This document shows, piece by piece, positions 31,418-41,218 of a stretch of DNA of 43,307 nucleotides (positions within the stretch are counted from its first letter, which is position 1; every line of letters starts with the position of its first letter). The stretch covers positions 1-43,307 of the forward strand of contig CAMJPM010000016.1 in the NCBI GenBank assembly GCA_946407725.1, given 5' to 3'. The position numbers and the translations under genes are program-made. The stretch is from an uncultured Lachnospiraceae bacterium. GTDB taxonomy: Bacteria; Bacillota; Clostridia; Lachnospirales; Lachnospiraceae. The notes under the pieces were generated by a model. It ran no database searches. It was not told where the DNA came from and saw nothing but the letters and a program-made list of their open reading frames with translations.

Positions 31418-31483
31418 GACCTGTTGCAAGTAACAGTTCCTTAAATATTCGGGGCGTTGTTCTCCGAATGCGGGTTTTCTGTT

Positions 31484-32677
31484 ATGAAGAAATTTCTGGT
31501 ATTATCATTAGTCATATTGTTCATACTGTCAGCTGCCATGGTGGTAAAAAGCTTTAAGGCCATCACTGCTTCCGGGGGGCAGGGTGATGGGACCGTGTAT
31601 GATACCGGGACAGAGACTGAAAATGATTCTGCCGGTGATACCGCCCCGGGAGCTGCCGCTGTTTCGGGGACAGCCAACACCGGGGAGGCTGTCGCTGCTG
31701 AGGAGACTGCCCATACTGCGGAGACTGCTGCTGAAGGTAACGCTGCTTCCAGCCCGGCGGATAATAGCGCCGGTGCCGATCTGCAGATGGATAACGGGGA
31801 TGCCGCTCTGCCGGAGGATAGTGACGCTGTTGAAGAAGAGCTGAGAGAACCTCTTGAAAAGTACACTGATATTCTGAAGATCAACCCTTATGTGGCAGGA
31901 TGGCTGGAAATAGAGGGATCAAAGCTCAACGCTCCTGTGGTATATACTCCAAAAAGCCAGAACTATTTTATCCACCGGGGCCTTGACGGCAGTGATAATA
32001 ATGGCGGCACCCTCTTTATCGCGGTAATCTGGCGGGAGGGCTACAATAATACCCTGATCTACGGACATAACATGAAAGACGGAACCCTTTTCGGTTCACT
32101 TACAAAATATAAGGATAAGGCATACGGTGAGAGCCATAGCAGGATAAAATTCGACACCCTTTATGAGGAAAGGGAATATGAGCTTTTAGGTGCATTTTAT
32201 ACCAGCATAGAGGAGGAGGAGCTGGAGACCGACGAGGACAGGGCTTCACGGGACAGGGAAGTTGAAAAGGAGGCCATAGAAAAGATCGAGGAGGAGGCTA
32301 AAGAGGAGAAACCCGCCAAAGAAGGGGCCGAAGGGGAAGAGCCCTCAGAAGAGACCAGGCCTTCAGAAGAGACTAAACCGGAGGCGCCGCCCGTCCTTAC
32401 CCTGGCGGATATGCATTTAGATACGGATCTTGGAGATATAGATGTCTACAGGACAGAAAAAGACAGCGACATGCAAAACGGGAAATTCCGATATTATTAC
32501 TATACGGATCTCACCTATAAGGAAGACTACGACTATTTTATTGAAAACGTGAAAAATTCATTTCTCTATGATACAGGGGTGGATGCACAGTGGGGGGAAG
32601 AGCTCCTCACCCTTTCCACCTGCAGCTATCAGAAAAAAAACGGCCGCTTTATTGTCGTGGCAAAAAGGGTGAGGTAA
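31484..32677 (+). CDS. srtB: Class B sortase with long acidic insertion
   Basis: 397 residues. An N-terminal anchor (MKKFLVLSLVILFILSAAMVV) is followed by a roughly 90-residue Ala/Thr/Glu-rich linker, then a sortase B domain from about residue 130. Catalytic residues are His195 (LIYGHNMKDGTLFGSL), Cys380 (LTLSTCSYQ) and Arg388 (NGRFIVVAKR). Sortases cleave sorting signals and attach proteins covalently to peptidoglycan or pilin. Residues about 243-333 hold a Glu/Lys/Pro-rich insertion between the His and Cys halves that ordinary SrtB lacks. ATG 31484 is preferred because the membrane anchor starts there; TTG 31457 is in frame. No sorting-signal protein (LPxTG or NPxTN) was seen in the window, so the substrate lies elsewhere. 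Confidence 0.9.
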   Translation: MKKFLVLSLVILFILSAAMVVKSFKAITASGGQGDGTVYDTGTETENDSAGDTAPGAAAVSGTANTGEAVAAEETAHTAETAAEGNAASSPADNSAGADLQMDNGDAALPEDSDAVEEELREPLEKYTDILKINPYVAGWLEIEGSKLNAPVVYTPKSQNYFIHRGLDGSDNNGGTLFIAVIWREGYNNTLIYGHNMKDGTLFGSLTKYKDKAYGESHSRIKFDTLYEEREYELLGAFYTSIEEEELETDEDRASRDREVEKEAIEKIEEEAKEEKPAKEGAEGEEPSEETRPSEETKPEAPPVLTLADMHLDTDLGDIDVYRTEKDSDMQNGKFRYYYYTDLTYKEDYDYFIENVKNSFLYDTGVDAQWGEELLTLSTCSYQKKNGRFIVVAKRVR

Positions 32678-32875: not shown

Positions 32876-32899
32876 GGAACGGTCAGATAATAATAAAGA

Positions 32900-32923
32900 G
32901 GAGAGGGTCTCATGACCCTCTCC
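32900..32923. terminator. Bidirectional terminator between convergent genes
   Basis: GGAGAGGGTC (32900-32909) pairs with GACCCTCTCC (32914-32923), a perfect 10-bp stem with a four-base loop. T-rich sequence (TTTTCTGAATTTCTTTTT) follows on the plus strand and TTTATTATTATC on the minus strand. It lies between the sortase/LRR remnant region and the minus-strand giant gene. Confidence 0.8.
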
Positions 32924-32963
32924 CAGTTTTCTGAATTTCTTTTTATAATTTCGTTTTCCGGCT

Positions 32964-35900
32964 TTATTCATCCACGTTGAAGATGTAGTAGAAGTCGTCG
33001 TTCTTGAAGTAGCCGTAGCCGATCTCGCCGTTATGGCGCTGTCTCATGGCTATGCTTCCCTCGTAGTTATTTACACCTGTTGCCACGATGAAGGGTTCGG
33101 ATTCAGCCATCTTCTGTTCGATCTGAATATCGGCTTTGCCGGGCTTCGGCGTGGCGCCCTCCTTGAGGATAACGGTCTTCAGCTTTTTCTCACTCTCAAT
33201 GGAAGGACTGGCACCGTCAACCCCTAGTCCGCCGAAGATAGTTGCATTCATAACGGGTTTTACATTCAGGGTCTGAACGCCCTTTTTCGCTTTGACCACA
33301 GGGTCAATAAAGGACAGAACAACATCATCATTGGCGCCATTCATTGTGGTCATTCTCTCAGCTCCGGGCCAGAGAACGGGATCGGGATCGTTTTCTTCCA
33401 CAATTCTGATATCAGTGTTCCGCTCCTCAAGGAAATTAATATAGATATTGAAGGAAGGGATAACATGCGCCGGTCCTCCTGCAGGTCCCGGGACAAAATA
33501 TTGATAGGTGCCGTCCTCTGCGGGCATTATGTGGATCCATTTCGTAGTTCTGACATTACTTCCGTCAAAACTGTAATATGTGAAATCTACGCTCTGGACT
33601 TCCTTTGTAAAATCTGTAGTCACAGCTACATCCACATCATCATAGTCAATATAGCCGTTAGCCAGGTCGTCATCAAAACCGGTGATATTGTCTCCTGCCT
33701 GCAGAACTCCGTCAAAGCGGGGATCATCCACGCCCTTTGCCCAGCTGGGAACGAGCTCGATATGTTCATAGTGCTCTATTGCGGTAATAACACCGTCACA
33801 GTTGGCATCGTCAGGTATAAGCACTCTGTATTCCTCGTTCTTCATTTCCTTTCCGTTTTTCACATACTTTGGAGGAACGACATTGCCTGTAGCAGGGTCA
33901 GTCCTGTCGTCCTTTGTGACGGTATAGGGGAATGTAACCGGATTACCGCCGTTAATGCCGGCTATGGCATTATTTGCGGCAGCCCATCCGTTAACATCAC
34001 CCTCGATCCACTTTGTAAGGTAATCGAGATTGGAGCCGTAGGTGGTTTTCAGGGCAGCATACTGTGCTTTGTAGGCTTCTCTTGCTTTCTTAAAGCCGTC
34101 CCTGGCTGCTTTCTTGAATTCCTCACTGTTTATGTAGTTCTCATAAACCTCTTTTTTGGAGAGATATTCCTGGACATTATCACTATATTTGCTGCCCCAT
34201 TCACTCTTTTTAGGTGCCGGCATGAACTTTGCAATGAGAAGCTTGAATACGTCGTTGTCCACAATAGGGAATTCCTGCACTGTAGAGTGGTAAGCACCAT
34301 AGCCGTAATTTCCGTTCCATTTTCCGTTGACAAGGGTATCCATATCCGTCACATAATCGGAGGCTATCTTCATTCTGCTGATCTCAAAATTGAAGGATGC
34401 GTCCTTCAGAGCCTTTTTAATCTCTTTAGCGTAAGGCTTCAGGGCGGGGTCTATCTTTTTGGCTTTAAGGATGAAGGTTGGGGTATTCTTCTTAATATAG
34501 GAGTTTTCTTCCTTTGTGAGCAGGGGAGCAGACGCCGGAGCCGCAAAAGCTACCCTTCCCATTACACCCTTCTCGCTGTTGCCTAAATCCTTGTTCTCCT
34601 CCGAAACTTTGTAATACTTACTGAAGAAAGCTCCAGCCATGGCAGGTGAAATTTTCCCTCCCACAGGCTTGTCAGTTTCTATGATCTCATAGGCCACAGG
34701 CCTCGGGAACGCGGCAGGCTGAAGGGGCTTTTGAACAGCCTGGAGGGCGGTATCTCCCTGATAGTCAAGATAGGTGTGGGGGACAGTGGCGTTAACATTG
34801 TCCTTTGCTTTGGCATCCAGATCCAGCTTGCCTAAAAGCCTTGCGGGCTGTCCCTCTGTCCAGCTCACAACTACAGCTTCCGCATCAATTATGTAACGGC
34901 TGGCTTTATCATTGTCGGCAAAGGGATGTCCGTAGTCCTTCTTTACAGGCTTCTTTCCGTTGATCCTGCGGGAATCATAGCCCACAACAGGTTCTGTTCC
35001 GTTATAATAGTTGTTTATGTTTTCAATGGCTGCGATTTCTTTTCCGTTGGCAGTGTAAGTGTATCTTTTTACCTTGTAATTTTCATCGGTTTCAGATCCC
35101 ATTAGCCTGTAGCGCACCAGTATATAGGTAATACCGGTATCCTCCGTGCCGTCGGGAAGCTTTTTAGGTTTTGCATTATTCATGCTTGCGGTATATGCCG
35201 CATAGACATACTGGCCCACGGAACCGTTATTTATACCGTAACCGTTTACATAGACATTCCAGTCATTTACATGCACGTTGGGAGGGCTTACTGTCCTCTT
35301 ATCGATAAGGTGGTCGGTTTCACTGAGGTCAAAATAATACTGGAACGGAGATGTGGCGACCAAAGTGCCGGGAACGGCGGGATTTCCGTTATGGTCAGTA
35401 AAATTCATTACAGGAGCAGCGCCGGCAGTATAGCCTGCTTTGTAATCCCTGGTGTTGAAATAAAGATCCTGGTTTACATCATCCAATTGGCCGTCTCCGT
35501 CACTGTCCACACGGGCAGGCCTGTCCTGAACTATGAACATCTGTGACTTATCCCAGTTAGCGGGATCGGTGGAAACCCTCCAGGCATCCATTTCAGCGGA
35601 TTTGTAATCATAAGCCTTATCCGCCGCATCGTCATATTTTGCATTGGAAAGCCCGGTTTCATAGCCGTCTTCGTAACCCTTTCTGTAGCCGGCACCGTAT
35701 TGCGTATTTTTATCCAGCACATTGTAGGCACTGTTGGGGTCATTTTTTTCTATTTCATAGAAACCGGCATAGAAATCATTGGAATACTGGTCGTGTTCAG
35801 CATCCCTTTTTCCGGATGCAAAACCTGTGGCATAGCCCGTATCATAGGTCTGGGTTGTGGAAGCGGCTTTATAACCCGCATCAAAACCCGCCTTATACTG

Positions 35901-37241
35901 GCTGATCTCTTCAGAGGTGTTATTCTGGTTTGTTACATAAGCATGATATCCGCTGGCATCCTCGTCGGTATCCCTTTTATTGTATAGGTTCTGATTGTTA
36001 TTTATGCCGTCTATCTGTCCTATGGCATATCCGGCAGCAAATCCCTGGTTAAATGCGGCTTTTCCGTCGGTAGTTTTAGCGTCTTCTGTTGCGAAGGAAT
36101 AGGAATCGTCATAGCCCTTCTGGTAATTTTCAAGATAGGTTTTTCCCACCGTTTCCCCTGCAATGGCTTTGGCGGCGTCTTTAGTATAATCACCTTTATC
36201 GTCAGTATACTGTTTATTATACTTTTTCCAGTGGGTACGGTAATCTATGCCTGCTGCCGCAGCTGCTGCGGCCTGCGGATCATTTGCCAGATAATCATCC
36301 AGCTTTGCTTTTGTATTTACCTTTGAGTCAGAGGGTTTGCAGAGACGTCCGTCAGTTCTGCCGTCAAACCTTCCGTCCTCATAGCCTTCGGTTTTAGCCT
36401 TTAATTTATATGCGTCCGTATATCCCTTTTTCCACTCTGTCAAATATGCCTCTTCGTAATTATTATAAGCGGCAGTTACAAATGTTACTTTGAAATCGTC
36501 GGATTTAAGGAATGCATCGTAATCGGTATAGATCTCTATATGGTTGGACAGCAGTCCCTGGCCCGGAAGGGTGCCGGCGATGGAATCATATCCCTCATTA
36601 TAGGCATTTTTGTACCGCTCGCTTTTTCCCACTGTTTCTCCGGATGTGAAGCCTGCCCTGTAATTATCCCTGTATTCATTGCCGTTGGCAGTACTATTCC
36701 AGATAGAGGTATCATCGGCTTTTTCATCTTTAACTGCGTCTTTGGATCCTGCGGCGGCAAGGGCATAACCCCGGTCAAAGCCTGCTTTCAGGGCAGTATA
36801 ATACTGTCCGTGGCCGTATCCAGCATAGCCGTCTTCGTATCCGGCTTTATAGGCCAGAGTGAAGTTCTGGGTGGTATCCTTGTAAGCATTGTGCTTATCT
36901 TTGTATTTTTCCTGGTTATTATTCGGCTTATCAGTTGCGGCATCCGTTGTTCCATCGACAAAGCCGGTATCATAGTCATCAGCCGTTGCTGCCGGAACCA
37001 GATTAACGATCCCGGGCTCATCTTCCCCGGATGTTTCCGCCTGTGTCTCCTCCGTGTCATTCGCAGATATTTCCGCCTGTGTCTCCTCCGTGTAATCCAG
37101 CACAGATATTTCCGCCCCGGTCTCTTCCACGGTATCCGCCGACAGCGATCCCGCCGGTTCTGCGAAAGCCGGGGCGTTCATGGTAAGAACCATGGCTCCC
37201 GACAGCAGCAGAGCCAAAAATCTGAATTTACGTTTCTTCAT
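32964..37241 (-). CDS. Giant secreted protein with G-Y-x-x-G-Y repeats and EF-hand-like loops
   Basis: 1425 residues, no family recognised. A signal peptide (KFRFLALLLSGAMVLTM with an AFA-E cleavage site near residue 28) is followed by Glu/Thr-rich repeats (EETQAEIS, about 38-75). Residues ~89-605 carry about fifteen patches with Gly/Tyr every four residues, such as AGYEDGYAG, RKGYEDGYETG, AGFDAGYKA and NQGFAAGYAIG. Three calcium-type loops are visible: D579-SDGDGQLDD, D1145-ANCDGVITAIE (a full EF-hand pattern) and a weaker D1191-DLANGYIDYDD; the last two lie 46 residues apart and recall dockerin-type pairs. The ~430 residues between have no recognisable motif. No LPxTG or membrane anchor ends the protein, so it is secreted or held non-covalently. 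GGAAGGAG precedes the ATG. It faces away from the 64-bp repeat array. Confidence 0.85.
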   Translation of the reverse strand: MKKRKFRFLALLLSGAMVLTMNAPAFAEPAGSLSADTVEETGAEISVLDYTEETQAEISANDTEETQAETSGEDEPGIVNLVPAATADDYDTGFVDGTTDAATDKPNNNQEKYKDKHNAYKDTTQNFTLAYKAGYEDGYAGYGHGQYYTALKAGFDRGYALAAAGSKDAVKDEKADDTSIWNSTANGNEYRDNYRAGFTSGETVGKSERYKNAYNEGYDSIAGTLPGQGLLSNHIEIYTDYDAFLKSDDFKVTFVTAAYNNYEEAYLTEWKKGYTDAYKLKAKTEGYEDGRFDGRTDGRLCKPSDSKVNTKAKLDDYLANDPQAAAAAAAGIDYRTHWKKYNKQYTDDKGDYTKDAAKAIAGETVGKTYLENYQKGYDDSYSFATEDAKTTDGKAAFNQGFAAGYAIGQIDGINNNQNLYNKRDTDEDASGYHAYVTNQNNTSEEISQYKAGFDAGYKAASTTQTYDTGYATGFASGKRDAEHDQYSNDFYAGFYEIEKNDPNSAYNVLDKNTQYGAGYRKGYEDGYETGLSNAKYDDAADKAYDYKSAEMDAWRVSTDPANWDKSQMFIVQDRPARVDSDGDGQLDDVNQDLYFNTRDYKAGYTAGAAPVMNFTDHNGNPAVPGTLVATSPFQYYFDLSETDHLIDKRTVSPPNVHVNDWNVYVNGYGINNGSVGQYVYAAYTASMNNAKPKKLPDGTEDTGITYILVRYRLMGSETDENYKVKRYTYTANGKEIAAIENINNYYNGTEPVVGYDSRRINGKKPVKKDYGHPFADNDKASRYIIDAEAVVVSWTEGQPARLLGKLDLDAKAKDNVNATVPHTYLDYQGDTALQAVQKPLQPAAFPRPVAYEIIETDKPVGGKISPAMAGAFFSKYYKVSEENKDLGNSEKGVMGRVAFAAPASAPLLTKEENSYIKKNTPTFILKAKKIDPALKPYAKEIKKALKDASFNFEISRMKIASDYVTDMDTLVNGKWNGNYGYGAYHSTVQEFPIVDNDVFKLLIAKFMPAPKKSEWGSKYSDNVQEYLSKKEVYENYINSEEFKKAARDGFKKAREAYKAQYAALKTTYGSNLDYLTKWIEGDVNGWAAANNAIAGINGGNPVTFPYTVTKDDRTDPATGNVVPPKYVKNGKEMKNEEYRVLIPDDANCDGVITAIEHYEHIELVPSWAKGVDDPRFDGVLQAGDNITGFDDDLANGYIDYDDVDVAVTTDFTKEVQSVDFTYYSFDGSNVRTTKWIHIMPAEDGTYQYFVPGPAGGPAHVIPSFNIYINFLEERNTDIRIVEENDPDPVLWPGAERMTTMNGANDDVVLSFIDPVVKAKKGVQTLNVKPVMNATIFGGLGVDGASPSIESEKKLKTVILKEGATPKPGKADIQIEQKMAESEPFIVATGVNNYEGSIAMRQRHNGEIGYGYFKNDDFYYIFNVDE

Positions 37242-37379
37242 TACTACACTTCTCCTTCCTGATTAAACAAATATCTCCCTTTAGGGTGAAATCCCTGTTC
37301 CCCGTAAAAATACAGCTGGGGTTATACACCCGCACATGATGATCCACAGGATATTGGATAAAAATGTGCCGTACCTGTC

Positions 37380-37459: not shown

Positions 37460-37829
37460 ATTACTTGCCAAAATGGCAAATTCATAATGCAGGCAAGTAA
37501 TTTAGGGAAAGTACGGAGCAGAAATTACTTGTCAAAATGGCAAATAAATGATTTGGACAAGTAATTATGGGAAAGGATGGAGCAGAAATTACTTGCCAAA
37601 ATGGCAAATTCATGATGCAGGCAAGTAATTTAGGGAAAGTACGGAGCAGAAATTACTTGTCAAAATGGCAAATAAATGATTTGGACAAGTAATTATGGGA
37701 AAGGATGGAGCAGAAATTATATGTCAAAATGACAAATAAATGATTTGGACAAGTAATTATTGGGAAAGGATGGAGCAGAAATTACTTGTTAAAATGACAA
37801 ATTCATGGTTAGGGCAAGTAATTTAGGGA
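37460..37829. repeat. Tandem array of 64-bp dyad-bearing repeats (types A and B)
   Basis: Six units begin at 37460, 37524, 37588, 37652, 37716 and 37781 (units 1-4 are 64 bp, unit 5 is 65 bp, unit 6 is partial). Type A (units 1, 3) starts ATTACTTGCC and has GGCAAGTAAT; type B (units 2, 4) starts ATTACTTGTC and has GACAAGTAAT. Units 1+2 and 3+4 form a 128-bp repeat differing at one base; units 5 and 6 are diverged. Each unit can form a 10-bp stem around a 22-bp loop. It fills the 675-bp gap between the giant gene and ansA. It is not CRISPR, as there are no unique spacers. Confidence 0.9.
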
Positions 37830-37832
37830 ATG

Positions 37833-38903: not shown

Positions 38904-39372
38904 AAAAGGATCCCTTTATGGCATACTGACGCATAGTCTGCTTTGCCTTCCGCATGGCATCCTTGATCTCGTCATCAGTCATGGTTTTCCCTGAAGAGAG
39001 CTCTTTCAGCAGCATATCCACCTGAAAGCGCATGGTAAGCAGGGAGTTTGCCATGTTTCTCATGATATCTAGGATGTTCTTATGGTTTTCCGTTATGAAA
39101 TCATTGAGATCATTTTCCGTGATACGGAGTGCCAGTATGTCGGAATAGGCCACAACCGTATAGATGGAAGGCTGCTTAAGCAGTATCCCGAATTCCCCGA
39201 AACAGGACTGATGGCCGATAATACCGATAAGGGTTTCAAGATTTGTACCATAACCCGTGTATATTTCAGCGTGGCCCTTTATTATCTTGTACATTTCCGC
39301 ATTGGTTTCCCCCTCACGGAGGATAATGCTGTCCTGGGGAAACTTAACCATTTTACCTGTTGTCATCTTCAA
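38881..39372 (-). CDS. Cyclic-nucleotide-binding-fold protein without DNA-binding domain
   Basis: 163 residues. Residues ~8-115 match the CRP-type beta-barrel (DSIILREGETNAEMYKIIKGHAEIY and the SCFGEFGILLKQPS cassette). The arginine that normally binds the cyclic phosphate, next to the GE motif, is absent, so classical cAMP binding is doubtful. No helix-turn-helix follows: the C terminus is helical and charged. The start is taken as TTG 39372, five bases after GGAG; ATG 39366 is the alternative. Its start overlaps the 3' end of the GGDEF gene, so the two are translationally coupled, suggesting a partner or sensor in the same pathway. Confidence 0.85.
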   Translation of the reverse strand: MKMTTGKMVKFPQDSIILREGETNAEMYKIIKGHAEIYTGYGTNLETLIGIIGHQSCFGEFGILLKQPSIYTVVAYSDILALRITENDLNDFITENHKNILDIMRNMANSLLTMRFQVDMLLKELSSGKTMTDDEIKDAMRKAKQTMRQYAIKGSFSNSSRIS

Positions 39373-41218
39373 GCGATCTCCGTCTGTGCTTTGCTCTTTT
39401 TTCCATGTACATTTTCTGATCTGCCAGCTCTATAAGTGCGCTTAAGGGCTTATCGTTATCCAAGGGTACCATGTTGTAACCGATGCTGGCATCGATCTTG
39501 TAGGGGCGGTCGCCGGAGGAATTAAGATCAGTCATTGCCTTTCGTATTCTTTCCACAAGATCAGCCACTTCTTTCTCGGAAAGACCTTTTCCGAACATAA
39601 CAAATTCATCGCCACCGTACCTCATAAGGAGATCTTCCTTTTCCCGGTTTTTCCGGAGGATATCCGCCATATCGCATATCATCCGGTCTCCTGATTCGTG
39701 TCCTAATGCATCGTTTACGATCTTCAGGCCGTCGAGATCCAGGAATATGAAGAACATGTCCTCATTATTCCGTCTGGCTTCCTCCAGGATCTTTTCGGAG
39801 AACTTGAAAAATCCGGCACGGTTATAAACATGGGTCATGGGGTCAAATACCCACATTTCATCAAGGGTCTTGATCATTTTCTGCATTTTCATGACATTGC
39901 TCACCTGTTCAAGGGCAGATGACAGGGACATCATGAGAACCCGGTAGTATTCAGAGAACAGGGGCATTGAAGAATTGCGTATGGATGTGAAGCCATAGAA
40001 ACGCTCCCTGTAGTGTAATGAATAAATGATGAAAAGATTGCCTCCTGATCTGTCGTCAAATTTCGGATGGCATTCCAGGATATTGGCGTTATTATCCACT
40101 ACAAATTCATCGTTATCGTAAACAAGCACGTGTGCCGAACTCCGGTATTTATCTTCATCATTTTCATTCTTGTCAAAAATAGCGAGGACAAAGGCATCCC
40201 CTCCCAGTTCAGGAATACAGGGCTTTACGGAGTTAATAATATCTTCCGCGGATCTGGCGTTTGTCAGACTGACTGTGAGATCGCTTATCATCTCAGCGTA
40301 CCGGGCTTCACGGAGTTTGTTGCGGGAATACTGGTTGACAACAATCCTGTGGTATACCGGACGGACAGCATCGCATCCGCAGGTTTCCGCATAGACCGGC
40401 TCTGAATCAATGACAGGACTGTTATCATATTCTTTTCCCTCTATGGCAAGAATGAGGTTTTTGTATGCCGTCTCCCCGAGCTTTTCTTCAAATCTGTTGA
40501 CAGAAGTGATCCGTGGATAGTGATTGGCGGCTTCGAATATATTGTCATATCCTGAAAGTATGGTATCCTCCGGAATCCTGATACCTCGGTCTGTAAGGGC
40601 ATAAAATGCTCCCAGCGCCATCTGGTCGTTGGCACATATATATGCATCAGCATCAAGAAGGCCTTCGCTTTCAAAATGCCTGACAGCCGCCCGCCCGCTT
40701 CTTGCGTAATAATCACCTGCGTAATAGCGCCGGGGGTCAAGATGGAGCCCTGCTCTTTCAAGCTCCTCTGTGAATACACGCTTCCGTGTCCGCGAATCCA
40801 CGGAATCCACCGGCCCGCCTATGAAATTCACGGCTTTTATTCCGTGCTTTTCTATAAGATGTCTCGACAGGGTACGCATGGCTCCCTCATTATCGCTGCT
40901 GACATAGATCATGCCGTCTACGGCAAAATCTATGGAAGCACAGGGCTTGTTAACGGTTCTGATCTTTTCAAAAACCACATTCCGGATCCTTTCGGAGTAA
41001 ATGCTTTCTGCATAGACTATGAATCCGTCATATATTGAAAAATCATCATAGAGCATGGAAGCTGCCACACCCTCATTATATTTTTCATCTGTGGAAAGAG
41101 TGAGCGCATATACTACGATATTATTGCCGTCAGCCTTTGCGGCATCGGCTATGCCGGTAAGGACCTTTCTCTGTGTATCGAGCTCCAGTTCCCCAATAAA
41201 GAAAGCTATATTGAGCAT
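39353..41218 (-). CDS. LacI-type sensor plus GGDEF diguanylate cyclase
   Basis: 621 residues. The first ~280 are a LacI/Peripla_BP_3-like ligand-binding domain without a helix-turn-helix (FIGELELDTQRKVLTGIADAA, SSDNEGAMRTLSRHLIEKHG, NDQMALGAFYALTDRGIRIPEDTILSGYDN). A middle segment (about 300-450) looks like a GAF-type regulatory region. The C-terminal GGDEF domain is canonical (FFIFLDLDGLKIVNDALGHESGD, YGGDEF at 535-539), so c-di-GMP synthesis is likely. The I-site arginine (RxxD before GGDEF) is replaced by Glu, so product inhibition is probably lost. No signal peptide or membrane segment, so it should sense a cytoplasmic ligand, probably a sugar. AGGAG precedes ATG 41218. Confidence 0.93.
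   Translation of the reverse strand: MLNIAFFIGELELDTQRKVLTGIADAAKADGNNIVVYALTLSTDEKYNEGVAASMLYDDFSIYDGFIVYAESIYSERIRNVVFEKIRTVNKPCASIDFAVDGMIYVSSDNEGAMRTLSRHLIEKHGIKAVNFIGGPVDSVDSRTRKRVFTEELERAGLHLDPRRYYAGDYYARSGRAAVRHFESEGLLDADAYICANDQMALGAFYALTDRGIRIPEDTILSGYDNIFEAANHYPRITSVNRFEEKLGETAYKNLILAIEGKEYDNSPVIDSEPVYAETCGCDAVRPVYHRIVVNQYSRNKLREARYAEMISDLTVSLTNARSAEDIINSVKPCIPELGGDAFVLAIFDKNENDEDKYRSSAHVLVYDNDEFVVDNNANILECHPKFDDRSGGNLFIIYSLHYRERFYGFTSIRNSSMPLFSEYYRVLMMSLSSALEQVSNVMKMQKMIKTLDEMWVFDPMTHVYNRAGFFKFSEKILEEARRNNEDMFFIFLDLDGLKIVNDALGHESGDRMICDMADILRKNREKEDLLMRYGGDEFVMFGKGLSEKEVADLVERIRKAMTDLNSSGDRPYKIDASIGYNMVPLDNDKPLSALIELADQKMYMEKRAKHRRRSLEDDNR

Follow-up and report, generated by a model that had tools for sequence, protein, structure and literature searches.

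The GX3 motif of paired helices is known from adaptors (Yae1-Lto1) and from export regulators such as FliH, which is a cytosolic protein. The repeats of FliH favor Tyr or Phe after Gly, which make up more than 45% of that position, and have Glu, Gln or Ala at about two thirds of their x3 positions (PMC2674601). Yae1 and Lto1 are cytosolic adaptors of eukaryotes (Fe-S), for which another study reports that the Lto1-Yae1 complex is weaker when glycines in the deca-GX3 motif of Lto1 are changed, and that Lto1 has a conserved Trp or Phe at its C-terminus (PMC4523923). Here we compare with these systems a protein of 1425 residues encoded by an uncultured Lachnospiraceae bacterium (contig CAMJPM010000016.1; the window is the whole stretch of DNA analyzed, 43,307 nucleotides). 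The GxxxG repeats of FliH rank as its closest known feature and the deca-GX3 motif of Yae1/Lto1 as the second, whereas membership of the protein in FliH, Yae1/Lto1 or dockerin families is not supported.

The protein resembles FliH and YscL (of flagellar and type III export) in its GxxxG runs with Tyr or Phe after Gly, found in 14 of the 20 GxxxG up to residue 605, but differs from them in x3, which is mostly Asp (7/20) rather than Glu, Gln or Ala. It also differs from FliH in having no FliH domain, in its apparent export, in its far greater length and in its many separate arrays; the NCBIfam row for FliH at residues 449-483 (E 1, 8.9 bits against a cut-off of 180) is very weak. With Yae1/Lto1 the protein shares a glycine at every fourth residue, as the first-pass annotation had pointed out; the likeness holds for the spacing of the motif and does not extend to family membership. 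The Yae1_N model (PF09811) appears for all three repeat regions scanned, at best with E 0.7 and 10.1 bits (cut-off 27.5), and gives no row for the full-length protein in Pfam up to E 10, while the best score among the family proteins scanned is that of a 542-aa paralog (E 4e-4, 20.4 bits). Moreover, the protein ends in NVDE, without the C-terminal Trp or Phe described for Lto1.

The 1425-residue reading frame proposed in the first-pass annotation is confirmed; it runs along the minus strand from 37241 to 32964, preceded by a putative ribosome-binding site and followed, directly past the stop, by a terminator-like stem of 11 pairs (table 1). The export-type N-terminus can be read from the sequence: the 19-mer Kyte-Doolittle maximum of 1.73 falls at the signal peptide, values after residue 30 reaching at most 0.92, and the peptide is probably of the Sec type, with predicted cleavage after AFA (AFA/E, 27/28). 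Signal peptides of this type (KKxLSLLLAAAMVFSMN) are a family feature, and the start of the gene is matched by subfamily profile A8 (E 7.8e-7). These data support export of the protein, as judged from its sequence. That no anchor motif ends it, as had been claimed, is borne out by the last 80 residues, which contain no hydrophobic stretch (maximum 0.30). A sortase-anchored surface protein was considered and rejected: a C-terminal sorting motif with membrane segment is absent, and a loose sorting-motif pattern matches only at residue 83. The earlier remark that the protein was of a type that could not be placed also stands, since searches of Pfam, NCBIfam, PHROGs and PDB sequences returned nothing significant; a PDB thymidylate kinase row (E 0.14) was taken as chance, as were Pfam rows such as DUF3970 and GAD-like, with E values of 0.029 at the lowest.

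Table 1. Positions in the window of the 1425-aa gene, its flanking signals and the parts of its product
Feature	Residues	Position	Strand	Sequence or remark	Basis
Whole gene, exported GX3/EF-hand family member	1425 aa	32964..37241	-		reading frame
RBS-like sequence		37251..37260	-	AGGAAGGAGA, 5' of ATG	by inspection
Signal peptide	1-27	37161..37241	-		hydropathy; cleavage by inspection
GX3 (G-[YF]-x-x-G) region	93-545	35607..36965	-	14 of 15 patches (15th at 603)	
Shared core, first part	546-1080	34002..35606	-	DPANW at 559; NINNYYNGTEPVVGYDSR; ALKDASFNFEISR	
DSDGDG string	from 579	35472..35507	-	not conserved	
EF-hand loop	1145-1156	33774..33809	-	DANCDGVITAIE; present in all 6 long and mid members	
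Degenerate second loop	1173-1184	33690..33725	-	DPRFDGVLQAGD; conserved among long and mid members	by inspection
Weak loop	1191-1202	33636..33671	-	not conserved as loop	
C-terminal unit	1367-1425	32967..33143	-	GVNNYEGSIAMRQR...GYGYFKNDDFYYIF; ending common to paralogs	
Terminator-like inverted repeat		32899..32924	both strands	between gene and converging sortase gene	

Judged by profile comparison, the protein is the largest member found of a multi-paralog exported family with a common core and a common C-terminal end, the latter lying at its very end. The source genome encodes at least six full-length members and one fragment; two of these paralogs, of 990 and 542 aa, also bear GX3 arrays. 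Homology of the cores across subfamilies is shown by alignment of their profiles, A3 with A8 at a probability of 96.9% (E 1.4e-10, 197 columns) and A8 with A9 at E 2.7e-16, to which the signal peptide contributes in part; between A3 and A9 only the last 60 columns align (E 2.3e-6, probability 89%). Members occur in at least 14 of the 48 genomes of the genus, a count that unites 10/48 from a separate search with nine genomes listed for profile A8 at 60% or more of the model (G000, G001, G003, G004, G021, G031, G032, G036 and G046). Matches to A8 in G001 and G004 include a second piece, and one of those in G004 contains a stop; in all, A8 matches at least 34/48 genus genomes, many of the matches spanning only the first ~50 positions (signal peptide) and being left out of the count. 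Among 397 sampled genomes of the taxonomic family, the core profile found matches in its own genus only. A contig search with profile A3 yielded two MAG contigs, with lengths and match places as in G010 and G014, while the same type of search with the 1425-aa sequence alone gave no match, and no relative was found among the phages, plasmids and viral contigs searched. An exported, paralog-rich family without annotation is outlined in gut Lachnospiraceae by its common core and ending.

In the long protein the GX3 array extends the core at its N-terminal side and directly follows on the signal peptide region. The first-pass annotation had counted about fifteen Gly/Tyr patches; there are exactly 15 G[YF]xxG at residues 93-603 and none in residues 611-1425, and shuffling residues 85-610 (2000 shuffles) produces 0.6 on average and 4 at most. 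The AlphaFold model of the repeat region is helical, with low confidence (mean pLDDT 44.4, three-row alignment), and 17 of 21 GxxxG lie wholly inside its helices, compared with 248 of 517 5-mers; the other model, likewise built on a three-row alignment, has a mean pLDDT of 31.1. In phylogenetic trees of the cores the GX3 label requires two state changes, both forced by well-supported branches, and none of 200 bootstrap trees (0%) needs just one, so the extension behaves as a separable part. These trees include 21 of the 31 collected sequences; left out were eight fragments, a C-terminal piece from G014 and one duplicate form of the short protein. Of the 21 sequences, G011_C30, G032_C16, G031_C11 and G000_C6 have no DPxxW match and were entered uncut with their signal peptide.

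We tentatively propose, as a plausible reading that falls short of probable, that the protein is an extracellular, Ca-stabilized member of a one-genus paralog family which associates through its GX3 helices into a multimer. It would lie outside the cell; the core (residues ~546-1080 with the last 59) would be the common part of the family, and the EF-hand segment is likely to bind Ca2+ and to stiffen the fold. The N-terminal extension may be a series of alpha-helices, in which the glycines at every fourth residue, with the following Tyr or Phe, would pack helix against helix, leading by self-association, or by pairing with the GX3 paralogs of 990 and 542 aa, to an extracellular multimer. The core itself might, at a guess, bind a surface or matrix. 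A bolder and rather improbable extension is that GX3 serves as a matching code, supported by Ca, and that the exported paralogs (1425, 990 and 542 aa) would use it to form mixed extracellular complexes. Conserved GX3 arrays do occur on exported proteins, and if they pair, they would represent a simple sequence-coded device for extracellular assembly; even without pairing, the family takes in at least six proteins of the source genome that our searches had left nameless.

The array could also be a convergent simple-sequence feature without specific role, the core doing the work. This is rather unlikely, although GX3 arrays are common: at E <=1 the Yae1_N model matches 43 of the 48 genomes of the genus as well as 8 of 14 controls, an unspecificity for which we rejected the model as diagnostic. 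It also matches other bacterial proteins, the two loci examined containing a protein with a GX3 tail, which we take to be nuclease-like, and a GX3-rich frame beside a similar protein. Moreover, most family members collected lack the array; the repeat profile matches only 3/48 genus genomes, implying that the family elsewhere does without it. Outside the genus the profile matched only G128 (E 4.7e-4), a presumably SpoIID-like protein that was dropped. The array of the 542-aa paralog, with runs of 6 and 5 glycines at every fourth residue, is missed by the repeat profile (12.0 bits), and phmmer with this array matched no long or mid member, both in a set of 44 sequences that includes a few non-members (neighboring or antisense frames passing a loose filter); it thus resembles the others in motif only, and a common module is not proven. 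Against a simple-sequence origin stands the finding that long and mid paralogs alike carry the array, which is seen in three paralog types in all, and that its conservation is position-specific. In the 44% identical ortholog of G010, 39 of 49 Gly/aromatic array positions are identical, as against 118 of the remaining 412, in a region only 34% identical overall (157/461), which confirms that the GX3-spaced repeat is kept in another genome; this comparison is uncorrected for glycine, which may be slow in general, other glycines being kept in 7/13 cases in the region and 34/66 in the core.

Somewhat less likely still is a binding surface or stalk, in which the spaced aromatics of the Gly-Tyr region would bind polysaccharide, possibly the exopolysaccharide made by the neighboring cluster. 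An aromatic at every fourth residue would suit this function, and next to the gene are a class B sortase-like gene and genes for polysaccharide formation (sugar transferase, glycosyltransferase and flippase). However, it converges on this cluster with the terminator-like site in between, its ortholog in G010 has other neighbors, and the array glycines are kept (26/32) as well as the aromatics (13/17), although a binding surface alone would have no need of the glycines; none of the adjoining genes indicates function.

The calcium-type loops are relevant to the Ca-stabilized multimer that we favor. The canonical EF-hand loop that had been noted at residues 1145-1156, in the segment between the core parts, is present and conserved in 6/6 long and mid members, the protein itself counted, and shuffling the mature protein 5000 times produces an equally strict loop in 48 cases (~1%). 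The weaker loop reported at 1191-1202 exists but is not conserved as a loop, the conserved second stretch being that at 1173-1184; similarly, the DxDGDG loop at 579 is present but absent from the G010 ortholog and the mid members, and DSDGDG-type strings arise in 179 of 5000 shuffles. The suggested paired loops of dockerin type did not hold up, given one canonical and one degenerate loop, 28 residues apart. A dockerin- or cellulosome-type component, to which these two stretches and the occurrence of relatives in goat reticulum and in the rumen of roe deer might point, is most improbable: up to E 10 the Pfam search gives no row for dockerin, cohesin or EF-hand, the second of the loops is degenerate and, unlike in dockerins, both loops are embedded between core parts instead of terminal.

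The C-terminal profile A7 gave weak matches in four genomes outside the genus (E 0.006-0.009), which score at most 8.4 bits with A3, A8 or A9 and were not counted. Three of them we take to resemble housekeeping proteins, namely an anti-sigma factor, a DHH phosphoesterase and a protein of the CoA-ligase type. Some bacterial surface proteins end in an Ig-type strand similar to G.GNYTGT, which the family ending G.NN.EG recalls; the fourth match, in G099 (E 0.008 over 34 positions, a likeness rather than an established homology), falls in a long protein that resembles surface proteins and reads GKNNFTGT at this site.

The 1425-residue exported protein belongs to a real and conserved family that carries no label, and its novelty lies in a known motif, GX3, placed in an unusual extension on a new family. 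Searches with the full protein against Pfam, NCBIfam, PHROGs and PDB sequences returned a best row of only E 0.094; profiles of its two halves against PDB gave no rows in one case and a single row (E 0.14) in the other, and the repeat regions alone reached at best E 0.029 in Pfam, under the cut-off wherever one was displayed. None of the titles listed in the literature on GX3/GxxxG repeats, on Yae1_N in bacteria or on Lachnospiraceae secreted proteins describes such a family. A single-sequence search matched 3 of 48 genomes of the genus, its own included, while the profile of the core shared by long (1425-residue type) and mid (990-residue type) members, A3, matched 10; adding the core-length rows of A8, the profile of the 542-residue group, which was searched within the genus, brought the count to at least 14. 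Of 397 genomes spanning 334 genera within the taxonomic family, two match A3, both belonging to the same genus; six match the C-terminal profile A7, two inside the genus and four outside it, the latter weakly (E 0.006-0.009). For the searches made (A3 and A7 across the 397 genomes, A8 within the genus), the family is confined to its own genus. Six full-length members (1425, 990, 483, 479, 542 and 464 residues) and one fragment are encoded in its own genome; those relatives that carry a name are MAGs of Lachnospiraceae, obtained from the reticulum of goat and the rumen of roe deer. With hhalign, the long/mid members align to the 542-residue group (E 1.4e-10), the latter to the short group (E 2.7e-16, the signal peptide contributing part), and long/mid to short through the last 60 columns only (E 2.3e-6). 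The model of the core has a mean pLDDT of 31.1.

The "about fifteen" Gly/Tyr patches of the first-pass annotation proved to be exactly 15 G[YF]xxG matches, spread over residues 93-603 with none beyond residue 611; 2000 shuffled sequences average 0.6 such matches and never exceed 4. Spacings between glycines peak at 4 (21), with a lesser peak at 8, and those between aromatic residues at 4, 8 and 12 (29, 17 and 14). Over residues 85-545, the glycines of GxxxG and the aromatics following them are identical to those of the G010 ortholog (44% identity) at 39 of 49 positions versus 118 of 412 for the remaining residues (Fisher p 6e-12, a value that includes any general slowness of glycine); glycines outside GxxxG are identical at 7 of 13. 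Selection therefore probably maintains the GX3 pattern. An AlphaFold model of residues 80-650 is poor (mean pLDDT 44.4, pTM 0.30) and mainly helical in the repeat region; in this low-confidence model 17 of 21 GxxxG lie wholly inside helices, versus 248 of 517 for all 5-mers.

Arrays, defined as at least five G[YFW]xxG within the N-terminal part, lie after the signal peptide and ahead of the core in long, mid and 542-residue (C68) members, the remaining members collected having at most four scattered matches. Aligned with four members of its own subfamily, C68 shows its array as an insertion, and on a tree of 21 sequences the array requires two changes, both forced by well-supported branches. 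The C68 array, with glycine runs of 6 and 5, scores 12.0 bits against the repeat profile A5 (best of 200 shuffles, 5.5); phmmer with this array did not match long or mid members, and its likeness to the other arrays is one of motif only. The array may have been shuffled or have arisen twice; its loss from the relatives is a possible alternative.

Of the earlier likeness to eukaryotic Yae1/Lto1, the GX3 spacing holds, but the Yae1_N model scores far under its cut-off. This model is unspecific as a diagnostic, given that it matches 43 of 48 genus genomes with E values of 1 or lower (exceeding the cut-off in 2 of 48) and 8 of 14 control genomes. Of two loci examined, one above cut-off (G021:C228) is a GX3-rich frame adjoining a nuclease-like frame, and the other, under it (G024), forms the tail of a nuclease-like protein; we take both nucleases to be of the Rpn type. 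The GxxxG repeats of FliH are closer to the present array than is the deca-GX3 of Yae1/Lto1: Tyr or Phe follows Gly in 14 of 20 GxxxG of the 1425-residue protein, and in FliH these two make up over 45% of that position (PMC2674601), although the x3 residue, mostly Asp here, differs. Together with the glycine changes of Lto1 that weaken its complex with Yae1 (PMC4523923), the aromatic preference of FliH suggests that the GX3 extension would serve in helix packing and association.

The EF-hand loop at residues 1145-1156 is canonical (DANCDGVITAIE). An equally strict loop occurs by chance in 48 of 5000 shuffles, and its weight derives mainly from its retention in all long and mid members collected (3/3 and 3/3), together with a degenerate loop-like stretch at 1173-1184. 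The other two named earlier (from residues 579 and 1191) lack conservation as loops. The dockerin or paired-EF idea is not supported, and a Pfam search up to E 10 lists no dockerin or EF-hand row. In genome G099, of another genus, a surface-like protein (locus L102) has GKNNFTGT within its weak A7 match; it is a possible bridge between the family ending and common surface-protein domains, so that the C-terminal unit may represent a remote form of an ending common among surface proteins. The other three of the four weak A7 matches outside the genus look like chance on inspection.

The gene looks like a single-gene unit, judging from the elements that flank it (RBS-like site, terminator-like repeat, divergent asparaginase gene and converging sortase-like gene).

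Features of the 1425-residue gene and its surroundings
Feature	Window position	Strand	Relation or content
1425-residue ORF	37241-32964	-	codes for 1425 residues
RBS-like AGGAAGGAGA			before the ATG
Terminator-like inverted repeat			immediately beyond the stop
Asparaginase gene			upstream, divergent
Class B sortase-like gene	31457-32677	+	downstream, converging
64-bp tandem unit	37460-37830		5.8 copies, between 1425-residue and asparaginase genes
LacI-type sugar-binding and GGDEF domains (Pfam)	39353-41218	-	one protein

The sortase-like gene reaches E 5.4e-32 with TIGR03064 of NCBIfam, yet only 111 bits against a cut-off of 153.75, and 40.3 bits with Pfam Sortase (cut-off 26.6); it is placed after polysaccharide genes and has a long acidic insert ahead of its C-terminal part. 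The tandem repeat has a 128-bp higher unit with 90% matches and includes an inverted repeat (ATTACTTGNC...GNCAAGTAAT type); elsewhere in the genome it has four weaker matches (72-77%), and an exact 20-base piece occurs in 2 of 139 loci, both being this same site.

Among the relatives, the gene divergent to the short member at L083, L084, L085 and L086 (G003, G037, G046 and G011) is presumably tyrosine-recombinase-like. Upstream of a short member in G000 lies a large protein (L008:143-3475), one stretch of which is papain-like (Peptidase_C1 at E 0.0014, 19.2 bits versus a cut-off of 20.7), and L091:8252-11668 of G032, in the same place, was likened to it by size and ending. In all three genomes found to have the mid paralog (L007:6352-9324, L020, L023), its signal peptide is followed by a long run rich in Asp. 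Many of the A8 matches listed in the 48 genomes span just the first ~50 positions, on open frames of up to 3078 residues, and a large share of the genus secretome seems to bear a very similar signal peptide.
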